DNA of 64,000 nucleotides from Mycoplasmataceae bacterium (GTDB lineage: Bacteria; Bacillota_I; Bacilli_A; Mycoplasmatales; Mycoplasmoidaceae): NCBI GenBank assembly GCA_031265955.1, contig JAISBY010000004.1:1-64000 (forward strand), in the 5' to 3' direction. Below are positions 133 through 64,000 of this stretch, in pieces; within the stretch, counting starts at the first letter, position 1, and the number at the start of each line of letters is the position of its first letter. A program made the translations under genes and the position numbers. The notes under the pieces are model-generated. The model was not told where the DNA came from. It saw only the letters and a list, made by a program, of their open reading frames with translations, and did no database searches.

Positions 133-880
133 TTATGATGTCGGCAAATTTACATCATCAAATCCAATTATTGGAATGTAACCTCAGTTGATTTTGGTAA
201 ATGTCGTGGCAAAAAAACTTTCAGTAGCATCAATTACAAAACCGCTTCCATCTTCTACTGTCATATTAAATACATTTCCTGGCCACTGTTGAAGACTTTG
301 GTCTGGCGAAATGTTTTTCATAAATCATAAAAAACGAGTTGTAGAATGTGTATTGGAGTGAACTTGAATTGTTGTTTCCGTATTTTGTTGAATTTCTTGC
401 GCACCATTATAATCAACTCACACGTTTCTATCAAATGCAAAATCTAAAAGAATTCAAAAACTAAAATGTCCAGATGAATCCTGTTTTATATATTGAACAT
501 GAAACATAGAATATTGATCAACACAATCAAAAAAATCAATTGGCGCGGTCAAATCAGCATTGCTATAAAAATCTATAGATTCGGCACAAAAATAAAAATA
601 TTGGATAAAAGAATTTAACATATCGCCAGGCTTCAAATTCTCGTTAAAATAATTTAAAACATCAGTCGATTCTTTTGTTGTGTCAATAAAATTTTTGGGT
701 TTATGCTTGCTTAAATAATTACGGTAAAAAGATGAATGTCAATTAGGAACGTCTTTAAAATGAATGGTTAAATCGTATAGATCGTAATTATCATTTTTGC
801 TACACGAGGTAATGGATAATCCCCCCCCCCGATGCAACTAAACTAATTAATCCTATCCCTACAAAATTTTTAAGTTTCAT
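133..880 (-). CDS. Phase-variable lipoprotein gene, OFF by poly-G frameshift
   Basis: The start codon (878-880) opens a signal peptide (MKLKNFVGIGLISLVAS) that runs into ten G (821-830, C on the plus strand). With ten G it ends within eight codons. With nine G the frame continues into LSITSC, a lipobox, and then an open body to the TAA at 133-135, giving about 248 aa. The body has only TGA (Trp) codons inside, so nothing else is broken. It is not similar to a family I recognise. The mature protein would be anchored by its Cys on the outer face of the membrane. The run length predicts ON/OFF switching by slipped-strand mispairing. A one-base sequencing error in the tract is the alternative. 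Confidence 0.8.
821..830 (-). repeat. Homopolymer of 10 (G on coding strand), slippage site
   Basis: Ten consecutive C on the plus strand lie inside the signal peptide codons of the minus-strand lipoprotein gene. G/C runs of this length are very rare in this AT-rich sequence. Nine bases would restore the frame; ten put it out. Confidence 0.9.
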
Positions 881-35850: not shown

Positions 35851-36336
35851 ATGGGAAAAATACATTCAATCAGGATATTTGGTTCGGTTTTATTAGGGGG
35901 GGGATTAGCAACAGCCGCCGTCCTTGCTACAACCAGTTGTAATGGAAAACCTGATGGTGATAAATATTTAAATATATGAACAGACAAAATAGATTGTACT
36001 AATACAGATCTTAAAGCTACGAATGTACAAATAGGGGAATATAAAATTCAAGATAAGAAAGATACAAATGAAGCGGTGGCGATTTGAGGCGTGAGCACCG
36101 TTCCGTTTTACGGAAATTTTGTAGCTTATGTCTATGGTTGATATAACGGAGATTCTTCCAGCTCAAATGACGGAAAAATATGAATCGGAATCATTCCACC
36201 TAAAAGTGTTGATAATTTGCCTAGTGGCGAACACAAAGTAGAAGTTGACATTAGTTTATATGATCATGGTGATGATAAAAAAGTTCTTGAGGATGTAAAA
36301 TACACCATTGATTTGAATGTCCAAGACGAGATATAG
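35851..36336 (+). CDS. Phase-variable lipoprotein, ON (poly-G in signal peptide)
   Basis: 161 aa. The signal peptide contains a run of eight G (35896-35903) read as GGG GGG GGA (Gly-Gly-Gly), then ALA-rich helix and lipobox ATTSC, with Cys at about residue 30. With eight G the frame is intact, so the gene should be on; adding or losing one G would stop it. The mature part is 130 residues, rich in Asp, Gly, Lys and Trp (TGA). No family recognised. A strong terminator follows. Confidence 0.85.
35896..35903 (+). repeat. Poly-G tract of 8, slippage site
   Basis: Eight consecutive G in the signal-peptide codons of the lipoprotein gene at 35851. Homologous in position to the tract at 821-830. Confidence 0.9.
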
Positions 36337-49748: not shown

Positions 49749-51275
49749 TTAAGAAGTTGCTTTTACCCTATCACTTTGTTTCATAAATGCTAACTTTGAA
49801 ACTTTATTAACATCAAGTTTTAAAACTTTAGCAAGGTTAGAACCATACTCTTTATCAGCTTTGTAGAATAAAGCGGTTTGACGATATTGAATGTTTTGCT
49901 TAGCATTACCTAAATGTCCAGCAATATTATTTATTAAATGTTCTTTTTCTGCTGATGTAAGAACACGTCTTCAAAATTCACCAGTTTGATAAAAGTCAAT
50001 ATCTTCTAACGGTTGAATACGCTTAGCTAAAGTTCCATCAATATTCAAAACAGGCATTGCCACTTCAGGAATCGGATATGGTTCACCAGGCACGCTATTA
50101 GGAAAGTAATTTACTTTCGCAGTGCTATTGTTATTGATTGTATGTAAACCATCTCTTTGGTAGTTATGAATTGGCACTCGAGGTCTGTTTATTGGAATTT
50201 CGGTATTATTAACACCTAGACGATATCTTTGAGCATCACGATAAGCAAATAAACGTCCTTGCAATAATTTATCAGGGCTAAAAGCAATACCAGATACTAA
50301 ATTGGTTGGTGCAAATGCTACTTGTTCTACTTCCGCAAAATAATTTTCGGGATTACGATTTAAAGTAATCTTACCAATTTCAATTAGTGGAAAGTCTTTG
50401 TGAAATCATACTTTTGTAACATCAAATGGATCGAACTTATAATTTAATGCTTGTTGTTTGTTCATAATTTGTACGCAAAATTTTCATGATGGGTATTTTC
50501 TATTTTTAATTGCTTCAAATAAATCACGTGTTGCATGATCTGGATCTTTGCCCTTCATAATAGTAGCTTCTTGATCAGTCATTGTTTCATTACCTTGGTC
50601 ACTAATGAAATGGTATTTAACTCAAACATAATCTTTGTGTTTGTTGTATCACATATAAGCATGGCTACTAAATCCATCCATGTGACGGTAATTTTTAGGA
50701 GTACCACGATCACTAAATAAAAATGAAACTTGGTGGATAGATTCAGGTGTTAAAGATAAAAAATCCCAAAACATATCGGCATCAGGCATTCCGGTTTGTG
50801 GATCCCTCTTTTGTGTGTGTACAAAATCAGGAAATTTAGCAGCATCTCTAATAAAGAAAATAGGAGTATTATTCCCTACTAAATCATAGTTTCCAGTCTT
50901 AGTATAAAATTTAATAGCAAATCCCCTTGGATCACGGGCAGCGTCAGCTGATCCTCTTTCGCCACCGACGGTAGAAAAGCGAATAAACAATGGTGTCTTT
51001 TTACCTTTAGTATTAAATAAATCAGCAGAGGTATATTCACTCATGTCTTTTGTTAGTACGAACTCACCGTAAGCACCCGCTCCTTTAGCATGTACTACCC
51101 TTTCTGGAATTCTTTCACGAGTAAAATGTGCTAATTTCTCAATTAAATTAACATCACCTAAAGCCGTGATTTCACCGCGTTTACCTGTTTTACCAATAGT
51201 TAATGATGTGTTGTCTTCGCTAATTGGTGCGCCTGTAGCACTAGTTAATATTTTCTTGGTCTTCTTTTGTTTCAT
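49749..51275 (-). CDS. Heme catalase
   Basis: 508 aa, small-subunit clade of monofunctional catalases. It breaks H2O2 into water and O2. The catalytic His62 ([15 protein letters not shown]), the distal Asn in [11 protein letters not shown], and the heme-ligand Tyr345 in [14 protein letters not shown] are all present. RBS CTAGGAGAA, -10 TATAAT at 51300-51305. No heme synthesis genes are visible, so heme must be taken up. Trp is coded as both TGA and TGG, so it has adapted to this code. Most mycoplasmas lack catalase; lateral gain is likely. It lies next to the SUF operon. Confidence 0.93.
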
Positions 51276-62032: not shown

Positions 62033-62464
62033 TTACTTTTCTTTGCCCTTAATGTAAGCAACAATTGCTTTGCTATTCTTAAATTCTTTGCCTTGGTCTT
62101 GAATAGCTACTCTCGTAGCATCTTTAGTTTCATCGTTAATTAAACCAATAATATTTTTATCAATCACTCCGAATTTATCAAGTTGTTTTACAGCTTCTTT
62201 GTGTCCACTTCTTATTAACATTTTGCGGATGTAATTAATAGTTCATGCCACTCCCAGTTGAAATGTGTTAGTATTGTTAGAAGTTACCAATAGATAGTCA
62301 GATTTCAAAAGATAATCAAGGTCATTTCAAAAAATAACGCTAAGCTTGTCCCTAGACGTAATGGTTAATGGCGCGCGCCACGAAATGTCCACTTCATTTC
62401 CGAGAAAACTAATAACCTCTTGGAAATCATCGCCTAATAAATATCCTTTTTTTAATTTATACAT
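62033..62464 (-). CDS. Hypothetical protein, 143 aa
   Basis: Reconstructed across two TGA Trp codons (FWNDLDYL, VAWTINYI). N-terminal beta-rich part (GYLLGDDFQEVISFLGNE) followed by a Lys/Asp-rich helix half (KDATRVAIQDQGKEFKNS). Lies directly between the toxin and coaD genes. No family recognised. Confidence 0.6.
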
Positions 62465-62498
62465 GTTCCTAATTATCTATTATGGAAATAATAATGAA

Positions 62499-63095
62499 CT
62501 ACTTATCAGTTATTTTCAATTTCGTAAAAGCTTGAAGAATCATATCTTGTAATTTATCGATATCGATAAATTGATCTGTTTGCTCTTTAACTACATAATC
62601 ATATTGCTGAATGCCTTTAGCCATTAATACTTGTTTTAATTCATCTTGGACTTCAGGAATGAGTTTTTCATAATATTTATTTGCAATAAAGCATAAATCG
62701 TATAAATCACGAATTTTATCTCTATTTCTAAAAGCATCAGCTTTTTGCATAGCAATAACATTTATGTCATAAAAATAAAAAATGCCCTCCTTTTTAATAT
62801 TTTCTTTATTTATAGATTTATTTCTAAGAGATGTTTCGATTTTTAAAGTCCGTCCGATAACTCCGTAATTTATAAAAAACTTTTGGCCTTTGTTGGTATC
62901 CTTTCGTTCGCTAGGAGAGGGCAAATGATGAATTTGACAAAACTTTTTGACGATATTAGCGATATTGCCTTTTTCAGAATCAAAGTCCAAATCCTCGCTA
63001 AAACGATCTAAATCATAAAATTTATATAAACAAGAACCACCTTTAAAAACAAAACGATTTGTATTTTTAAACAGAAAATTTAGAAATTCATTCAT
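62499..63095 (-). CDS. AbiEii-like nucleotidyltransferase toxin
   Basis: 198 aa. The nucleotidyltransferase core VFKGGSCLYKFYDLDRFSED with LDFD supplies GG(S) and DxD-type acids. R..DLYDLCFIAN fits the C-terminal part. Members of this superfamily act as type IV toxins or phage-defence effectors by modifying tRNA or other targets. Shorter than most (about 290 aa) and starts close to the core. TATAAT overlaps the ATG; the gene is 48 nt after a small partner gene. Confidence 0.8.
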   Translation of the reverse strand: MNEFLNFLFKNTNRFVFKGGSCLYKFYDLDRFSEDLDFDSEKGNIANIVKKFCQIHHLPSPSERKDTNKGQKFFINYGVIGRTLKIETSLRNKSINKENIKKEGIFYFYDINVIAMQKADAFRNRDKIRDLYDLCFIANKYYEKLIPEVQDELKQVLMAKGIQQYDYVVKEQTDQFIDIDKLQDMILQAFTKLKITDK

Positions 63096-63143
63096 TATAT
63101 TTTCATGTGCTTTTTAATTTGTATATTTCATAAATTTTAAAAA

Positions 63144-63488
63144 TTATTTTTCCGGTCAGAAAATAATGTGTGGATTTTCTTTTTCTTCTTTTTCCCCGTA
63201 AGATTGTCATTCTAGATGATCTAAAATAGAATTCAGTTTCGTTTGCAACATTCACTTTGGGTAGGAATCGAGAGATTTGGTTAAATTTGTTTTGAAAAAT
63301 AATTTATTATCTATTAGACATAAATTAAGTTTATTTAACCATTCATTAACATCGCTAAATCTAGCTTCGCTACCATTATGCATATATCTAAAAAATAAAC
63401 TATGACCTATGTTAAAAAACTTTTCAAGTCAGTAGTTTGTCACACTGAAATGATTTTTTATAACCATTAATAATTGCTTCGTTTTCAT
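63144..63488 (-). CDS. Candidate antitoxin or regulator, 114 aa
   Basis: Reconstructed across TGA Trp codons. The start MKTKQLLMVIKNHFSV and the stretch FFRYMHNGSEARFSDVNEWL look like a helix-turn-helix, but I cannot assign a family; it does not match the usual AbiEi antitoxin. A perfect operator-like palindrome lies over its promoter. It lies directly upstream of the AbiEii-like gene. The end is Lys/Glu-rich (GEKEEKENPH). Confidence 0.6.
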
Positions 63489-63497
63489 ACAATTGAT

Positions 63498-63503
63498 ATT
63501 ATA
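63498..63503 (-). promoter_or_regulatory. -10 box of the toxin/antitoxin operon
   Basis: TATAAT on the minus strand, 9 nt before ATG 63488, abutted by the palindrome at 63505-63518. Leaderless. Confidence 0.65.
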
Positions 63504-63504
63504 T

Positions 63505-63518
63505 GTCACTTTTGTGAC
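63505..63518. promoter_or_regulatory. Palindromic operator candidate GTCAC-TTTT-GTGAC
   Basis: Perfect 5-bp arms with a 4-nt spacer. It sits directly upstream of the minus-strand -10 box, within the -35 spacer. This fits autorepression by the antitoxin-like protein. Confidence 0.6.
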
Positions 63519-63598
63519 TTATTGAATAATTTATTCTTATTAATACATGTTAACAGTAGATATTTGTTATAGATTTTTTAAAAAAATAACTTATTTTT

Positions 63599-63622
63599 TT
63601 GACGCGAGGGGGGGGGTATAAT
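63599..63622 (+). promoter_or_regulatory. Promoter with poly-G spacer, possibly phase-variable
   Basis: -35 TTGACG (63599-63604), spacer CGA plus nine G (12 nt), -10 TATAAT (63617-63622). The usual spacer is about 17 nt, so the present length may be weak; changes in G number would alter it. Confidence 0.65.
63608..63616 (+). repeat. Poly-G tract of 9 in a promoter spacer
   Basis: Nine G immediately before the -10 box. Third long G/C run of the window. Confidence 0.9.
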
Positions 63623-63631
63623 ACTACGCGA

Positions 63632-63928
63632 ATGGCTTTAAATGTAGAAAAAATTAAAGATTTATATTCAAAATATAGACAAAAAAGAAGAGATATGTTC
63701 CACTCCTTGATATGGAGTTTAATATTTGTAATAATAACATCAATTTTCATTATTGCATTTATTTTTCATCCACTACTAGGTTTGCTCATAACCTTTGTTA
63801 TATTAATGACTTGTACTATTATTTCTTATATTTTCTTTTTTTATGATCTATTTTGGGTTTTGAAATATAAAGATAATTTTGATATTACTACAATAAACGA
63901 ATTAATTAACAATTTGATAGTAGATTAA
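63632..63928 (+). CDS. Small membrane protein behind the poly-G promoter
   Basis: 98 aa. A basic N-terminal 25 residues (KIKDLYSKYRQKRRD) is followed by two membrane helices (about 28-50 and 52-72), and a short C-terminal part. ATG 63632 is 10 nt after TATAAT, so probably leaderless. No family recognised. The tract upstream suggests variable expression. Confidence 0.7.
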   Translation: MALNVEKIKDLYSKYRQKRRDMFHSLIWSLIFVIITSIFIIAFIFHPLLGLLITFVILMTCTIISYIFFFYDLFWVLKYKDNFDITTINELINNLIVD

Positions 63929-64000
63929 GAAATAGATGTAGTTTCTTCAAAATCAATTAGTTCATATTCTTTATTCAGACATTCAATAAATTTTCTATAA
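63925..64000 (-). CDS. C-terminal end of a minus-strand gene, cut by the window
   Basis: Minus-strand frame open from the window edge to TAA at 63925, 24 codons (FIECLNKEYELIDFEET). Overlaps the end of the small membrane-protein gene by 4 nt. Only a short piece, so it may be chance. Confidence 0.35.
   Translation of the reverse strand, partial: YRKFIECLNKEYELIDFEETTSIS

Follow-up and report, generated by a model that had tools for sequence, protein, structure and literature searches.

A nine-G tract within a putative near-leaderless promoter of a gene for a small membrane protein in a Mycoplasmataceae bacterium

Does a run of nine G located between a −35-like hexamer and a −10 element control transcription in this Mycoplasmataceae bacterium, and, if so, in which direction and to what degree? 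The run lies on the forward strand of the window, by which we mean the whole stretch of 64,000 nucleotides that was analyzed. Direct inspection of the bases at 63599 to 63634 bore out exactly the elements described in an earlier, sequence-only reading of this DNA, namely, TTGACG, CGA plus nine G, TATAAT, and ATG. TTGACG (63599 to 63604) agrees with a −35 hexamer at five of six positions and is separated from the −10 element by a spacer (63605 to 63616) consisting of CGA (63605 to 63607) and the G run (63608 to 63616, at approximately −21 to −13). The spacer has the length of 12 nt given in that reading, where it had been judged against the optimum near 17 nt. The −10 element, TATAAT (63617 to 63622), is a six-of-six match and is followed by nine bases, ACTACGCGA (63623 to 63631), and the ATG at 63632. 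As the ATG is located 9 nt past the −10 element and transcription would start ∼7 nt downstream of this element (63628 to 63630), a leader of 2 to 4 nt is predicted, and the gene is better described as near-leaderless than as strictly leaderless. The site was missing from the output of an ordinary sigma-70 scan, which covers spacers of 16 to 18 nt. A direct repeat of ACGCGA (63602 to 63607 and 63626 to 63631, 24-bp spacing) flanks the G9-TATAATACT segment; a special meaning for this repeat was set aside, the frequency of the six-mer being ordinary.

The arrangement at 63599 to 63634 is not a chance event. Runs of at least seven G gave nine matches in the window relative to 0.44 in shuffled sequences, and, in stretches fetched from across the genome (G000; 980,658 bases in 11 contigs, 89% complete), 64 distinct runs of at least eight G were detected relative to ∼1 expected under an order-1 model. 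All 64 of these tracts contained 8 to 10 G, the longest having 10. TATAAT was found within 7 nt after a G run at four sites (0.23 expected; P ∼ 1e-4), and two runs were both preceded by TTGAC and followed by TATAAT, compared with an expectation of 0.002. These two tracts were the window site and a site at C2:78225-78251, and among the 36 genomes of the genus such sites were present only in this genome. The poly-G load was very uneven among the 36 genomes, with more than 90 G8 matches in G000, G064, G070, and G080 and none in several others. Inspection of sequence and frame also confirmed the existence of the two other tracts noted in the window, both within the signal peptides of lipoproteins. 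One (821 to 830, reverse strand) is a G10 tract that is out of frame, hence OFF in the assembly, and would be ON with 9 G; the other (35896 to 35903, forward strand) is a G8 tract that is in frame and ON in the assembly.

Promoter statistics were obtained from 243 kb of sampled DNA from this genome, enriched for the surroundings of poly-G tracts. TATAAT with an ATG 5 to 10 nt further on that opens a frame of 60 codons or more was detected at 26 sites, some of which will be due to chance, and a TATAAT-N6-9-ATG layout recurs in the genome. At the window site, TATAAT precedes the ATG of an open frame by 9 nt, which is the near-leaderless, −10-driven layout of mollicute promoters, and the same distance was observed for the promoter of a divergent AbiE partner gene, itself one of the 26. 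The −10 element and start codon are therefore well supported as a likely near-leaderless promoter. No clear −35 element was present among the 26 leaderless-type promoters sampled: a match of at least 4/6 to TTGACA at 17-nt spacing was found in 4 of the 26 (background, 5%), with nothing at 16 or 18 nt. In Mycoplasma pneumoniae promoters, similarly, there is no strong enrichment of the −35 element, and the positions of greatest importance are −17 to −13 (PMC5573727). A −35 role for TTGACG is consequently doubtful. At base −13, 24 of the 26 promoters had A or T, and the window site alone had G, so the G run may come at a cost in promoter strength, and the tract may weaken this promoter at every length.

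The second flanked tract (C2:78225-78251; loci L012 and L100, beyond the window) has the structure TTGACA-AAAC-G8-ATA-TATAAT, with a 15-nt spacer that would reach 16 to 18 nt at G9 to G11, i.e., with one to three extra G. The gene following it is near-leaderless and encodes an EFR1-type flavodoxin/ferredoxin for which no orthologs were found in the genus. The model of the sequence-only reading, in which gains of G would strengthen the promoter, fits the second site better than the window site.

Homopolymers in promoter spacers were also detected in other organisms. The pattern TTGAC-N0-5-G8-N0-5-TATAAT matched at least 120 sequence stretches from public genomes (loci L142 to L261), with 64 assemblies, mostly of uncultured gut Bacilli and Clostridia, among the matches listed. 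Among these listed matches, the spacer length peaked at 15 to 16 nt in 97 of 131 sites, and the modal spacer was 15, 16, or 17 nt in 49 of the 64 assemblies, with a search pattern that favors 12 nt by chance and is blind beyond 17 nt. A set of 395 genomes of the class Bacilli contained 66 TTGAC-poly-G-TATAAT matches and none for a reversed control pattern. For sites with a downstream reading frame, 72 of 98 (matches listed) encoded an N-terminal hydrophobic segment versus 29% of the frames at the same loci, and several of the proteins were TasA/camelysin-like by eye. One genome, G342, contained 37 copies of the promoter; G466 had sites with G7, G8, and G9; and a metagenome-assembled genome, G410, had five copies with spacers of 11 to 12 nt and G9 or G10 tracts, resembling the window site. 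Copies inside one genome differed by single Gs (G342, G363, G410, and G466). Five matches to the pattern came from viral contigs. The sequence comparisons indicate that the homopolymer spacer marks a real promoter class, located in most cases ahead of membrane-anchored surface proteins; a description of this multicopy class of gut Bacilli and Clostridia was not found in the literature searched. The window site shares the three elements of this class in the same order but differs in its short spacer of 12 nt and near absence of a leader, where the class has mostly 15- to 17-nt spacers and leaders of ∼20 to 180 nt. In the sister species G064, nine promoters had C8 to C12 runs located 4 to 13 nt before TATAAT, and four promoter copies with near-identical flanks had tracts of C9, C8, C8, and C8, differences of the kind that slippage would leave.

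In the reading that we prefer, the window site acts as the promoter of a gene for a small membrane protein, with TATAAT at 63617 to 63622 as the −10 element and transcription starting 2 to 4 nt ahead of the ATG. Replication slippage in the slip-prone G9 tract would shift the distance from the −10 element to TTGACG and to the A/T-rich stretch preceding it, and this shift in register would probably alter promoter output in a graded way. Taken as a whole, this explanation of a graded, tract-dependent promoter is given about an even chance of being correct. What the analysis shows is the sequence itself, the excess of tracts, the layout of the promoter, the inserted setting of the gene, and the wider promoter class; promoter activity, variation of the tract at this locus, and an effect on transcription are each inferred. 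A homopolymer-associated promoter is accepted as real; transcriptional phase variation would be plausible and modest tract-dependent expression likely, though slippage may have little effect, as positions −20 to −13 stay all G at any tract length.

A more conventional explanation is that TTGACG serves as a true −35 element, that the 12-nt spacing is an OFF state, and that added G would restore ∼17 nt and turn the promoter ON. Such a switch would suit the flanking of the tract by TTGAC and TATAAT, the sharp 15- to 17-nt mode of the listed poly-G class, the optimum of 17 nt for tp0126 (PMC7864442), the 15-nt spacer at C2:78225, and the short-spacer copies of G410. The difficulty lies in the numbers, as 13 to 15 G would be required here and none of the 64 tracts exceeds 10, and in the lack of clear −35 enrichment both in this genome and in M. 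pneumoniae. With 8 to 10 G, a spacing of 16 to 18 nt to TTGACG is out of reach, so that any switch at this site is not a classical restoration from 12 to 17 nt, and we regard this explanation as improbable. The same considerations weaken the proposal that gains of G strengthen the promoter. Moreover, the published directions differ among tp0126, tprE/G/J, and porA, and the direction stated in the sequence-only reading was therefore not accepted.

At the other extreme, the tract may be a mere passenger, with the −10 element alone driving the promoter and slippage being widely tolerated without a useful effect on expression. Many tracts of this genome sit within genes and have no obvious switch role, the −35 element appears dispensable, and the bases at −20 to −13 would be unchanged by slippage; against this stand the flanking of tracts by TTGAC and TATAAT above chance levels and the recurrence of promoter-spacer homopolymers in G064 and class-wide, and this possibility is considered rather unlikely. 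A third candidate moves the tract into the coding sequence. The frame of the downstream gene can be traced upstream as far as TTG at 63599, which gives 109 codons (63599 to 63928), and, if translation began there or further upstream, GGG GGG GGG would be read through and slippage would shift the frame. The tract is indeed in frame with this extension, a one-in-three coincidence, and there are translational tracts elsewhere in the window and genome. The TTG start was nevertheless rejected: no −10 element is located 6 to 9 nt before it and there is no ribosome-binding site, while the extension itself contains a perfect TATAAT with an ATG at the distance typical of this genome. A translational switch is thus judged highly improbable.

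The gene downstream of the predicted promoter is a near-leaderless frame of 98 codons (63632 to 63928, forward strand) encoding a hydrophobic product with two likely membrane segments and no lipoprotein signal peptide. The frame does not contain a TGA codon; TGA probably encodes Trp in this organism, as some frames are open only under code 4. No credible ortholog was found in 60 genomes of the family and 36 of the genus, the best marginal matches having E values of 2.8e-4 at 23% identity (family) and 0.004 (genus), and hence no second allele with another tract length was available. A Pfam-type profile search detected no family above the cutoff, a single-sequence structure model consisted of one long helix (pTM 0.44) and was uninformative, and a PDB fold search was empty.

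This gene is part of a species-specific insert of ∼1.7 kb (62465 to 64000, continuing to contig position 64205) located between a gene for a 143-aa protein (62033 to 62464) and cinA (contig 64206 to 64685, beyond the window). In the relatives G065, G064, and G079, the flanking genes are adjacent, with a gap of 20 to 46 bp from cinA to the 143-aa gene, and the gene order is asnS-pgsA-cinA-143-aa gene-coaD, with coaX also present where the locus extends to it. The insert contains an AbiEii toxin gene, its partner, the 98-aa gene preceded by the poly-G promoter, and, at its other end, a convergent 77-codon frame of unassigned function (63925 to 64000, continuing to contig position 64158; reverse strand). 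The toxin gene (62499 to 63095, reverse strand) encodes an AbiEii-type nucleotidyltransferase of a type IV toxin-antitoxin system (Pfam PF08843, E = 1e-17; PADLOC AbiEii, E = 2e-50). Upstream on the same strand, as in AbiE type IV systems, is a 114-codon frame (63144 to 63488), divergent from the 98-aa gene, whose product is an unrecognized, antitoxin-type partner; a homologous pair is present in G049. The promoter of the partner gene (TATAAT at 63498 to 63503, 9 nt, and ATG; reverse strand) has a palindrome, GTCACAAAAGTGAC, upstream, which suggests that the partner may be autoregulated. The 98-aa gene was absent from AbiE-bearing relatives. The adjacency of the flanks in relatives, together with the lack of an ortholog, family, or fold match for the 98-aa protein, indicates that the locus was recently acquired or orphaned. 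Elsewhere in the window, a putative catalase-like frame was noted (49749 to 51275, reverse strand); catalase is unusual in a mollicute.

A second type of arrangement involving poly-G tracts was detected at nine places in the same genome. Each consists of TATAAT, mostly ATGCAAT(Y)AAAT(R), a G run, a conserved hairpin, and an intrinsic terminator made up of a hairpin and a T run, with a lipoprotein-type gene following at approximately +130 to +141. These places are C2:68257(−), C3:38829(+), C3:243219(+), C3:300157(+), C3:337493(+), C3:379493(+), C3:387482(−), C5:77281(+), and C7:37886(+), within loci L061, L017, L066, L069, L070, L295, L072, L081, and L087; eight have G8 to G10 and one, C3:379493, has G7, and the start differs from the others in C3:300157 and C5:77281. 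Ten similar arrangements were present in G064 (loci L298 to L308, L324, L327, and L338). In the 17 analyzed, one phase of the G tract gave a leader peptide of ∼28 to 47 codons extending into or past the terminator, and the other phases stopped after 7 to 19 codons. Compensatory changes were observed in 11 of 22 pairs of the consensus fold (18 sequences). These poly-G leader frames are apparent phase-variable attenuators, as judged from sequence and predicted folding, and the arrangement is a stronger lead than the promoter finding at the window site. A precedent is the pil1 locus of Streptococcus gallolyticus, in which a repeat in a leader-peptide frame before a terminator decides readthrough (PMC3894217); the pil1 repeat is GCAGA, whereas the repeats of this genus, which are multicopy, are poly-G and dinucleotide, and attenuation of the pil1 kind is not the mechanism of the window locus. 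Loci L298 to L306 and L311 of G064 combine a C8 to C12 run before TATAAT with a second tract, G8 to G10, in the leader frame, giving two mutable tracts in series. Three further loci, L088 (C7:50096), L080 (C5:69220), and L089 (C7:68739), have poly-G or poly-C near TATAAT, with an ATG next and, after it, a long dinucleotide repeat, either (CA)n or (AG)n. Two of them, L088 and L080, continue with a terminator-like stretch and then a lipoprotein-like gene, and the layout resembles a dinucleotide version of the leader-frame switch.

A broader proposal, which we put forward tentatively and consider possible rather than probable, is that homopolymers act at three levels across the genus: in promoter spacers (the window locus, C2:78225, and the C8 to C12 runs of G064), in leader-peptide attenuators, and in signal-peptide frames, with some genes having two tracts in series. 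The window locus would then be a promoter-level switch on an AbiE-linked insert of recent acquisition, which would suggest that genes, once acquired, may join the phase-variable set via their promoters.

Several known promoters bear comparison with the window site. The earlier citation of the poly-A tract of Mycoplasma hyorhinis vlp as a precedent was correct (PMC10502178), and both vlp and the dinucleotide repeat of Mycoplasma mycoides vmm are promoter repeats that control transcription (PMC10502178). The likeness lies in a simple repeat within a mollicute promoter; the vlp and vmm repeats are not poly-G and control surface antigens, whereas the window tract is of G and precedes a gene for a small, unassigned membrane protein without a lipoprotein signal peptide. 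Closer precedents, being poly-G, are porA and tp0126. In Neisseria meningitidis porA, the poly-G tract is located in the spacer and contains 9 to 11 G, with expression lost on a change from 11G to 10G or 9G (PMC3639595). In Treponema pallidum, poly-G tracts of 7 to 11 are present in the promoters of surface-protein genes tp0126, tprE/G/J, and tprL (PMC7864442); that of tp0126 is located between the −35 and −10 elements with an optimum at 17 nt, and tprE/G/J require 8 G or fewer (PMC7864442), a direction opposite to that proposed for the window site in the sequence-only reading. The T. pallidum systems belong to another phylum than the organism studied here. The window site resembles porA in having a spacer G run of similar length that would be expected to set promoter strength, and it shares with porA and tp0126 a poly-G tract between recognizable −35 and −10 hexamers. 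Across the natural tract range of porA, the spacing varies about 17 nt, whereas the window spacer is 12 nt and 16 to 18 nt is not reached at the tract lengths used by this genome; the site plausibly works like porA and tp0126, but membership in this group is not established. If the length of the tract sets transcription, the locus would represent a mollicute promoter switch based on poly-G, the repeats in the mollicute promoters cited here being poly-A and dinucleotide, and would test the effect of a spacer homopolymer in a setting in which promoters barely use a −35 element. Mechanistically, the window site can plausibly be placed beside porA and tp0126 and, within the mollicutes, beside vlp and vmm.
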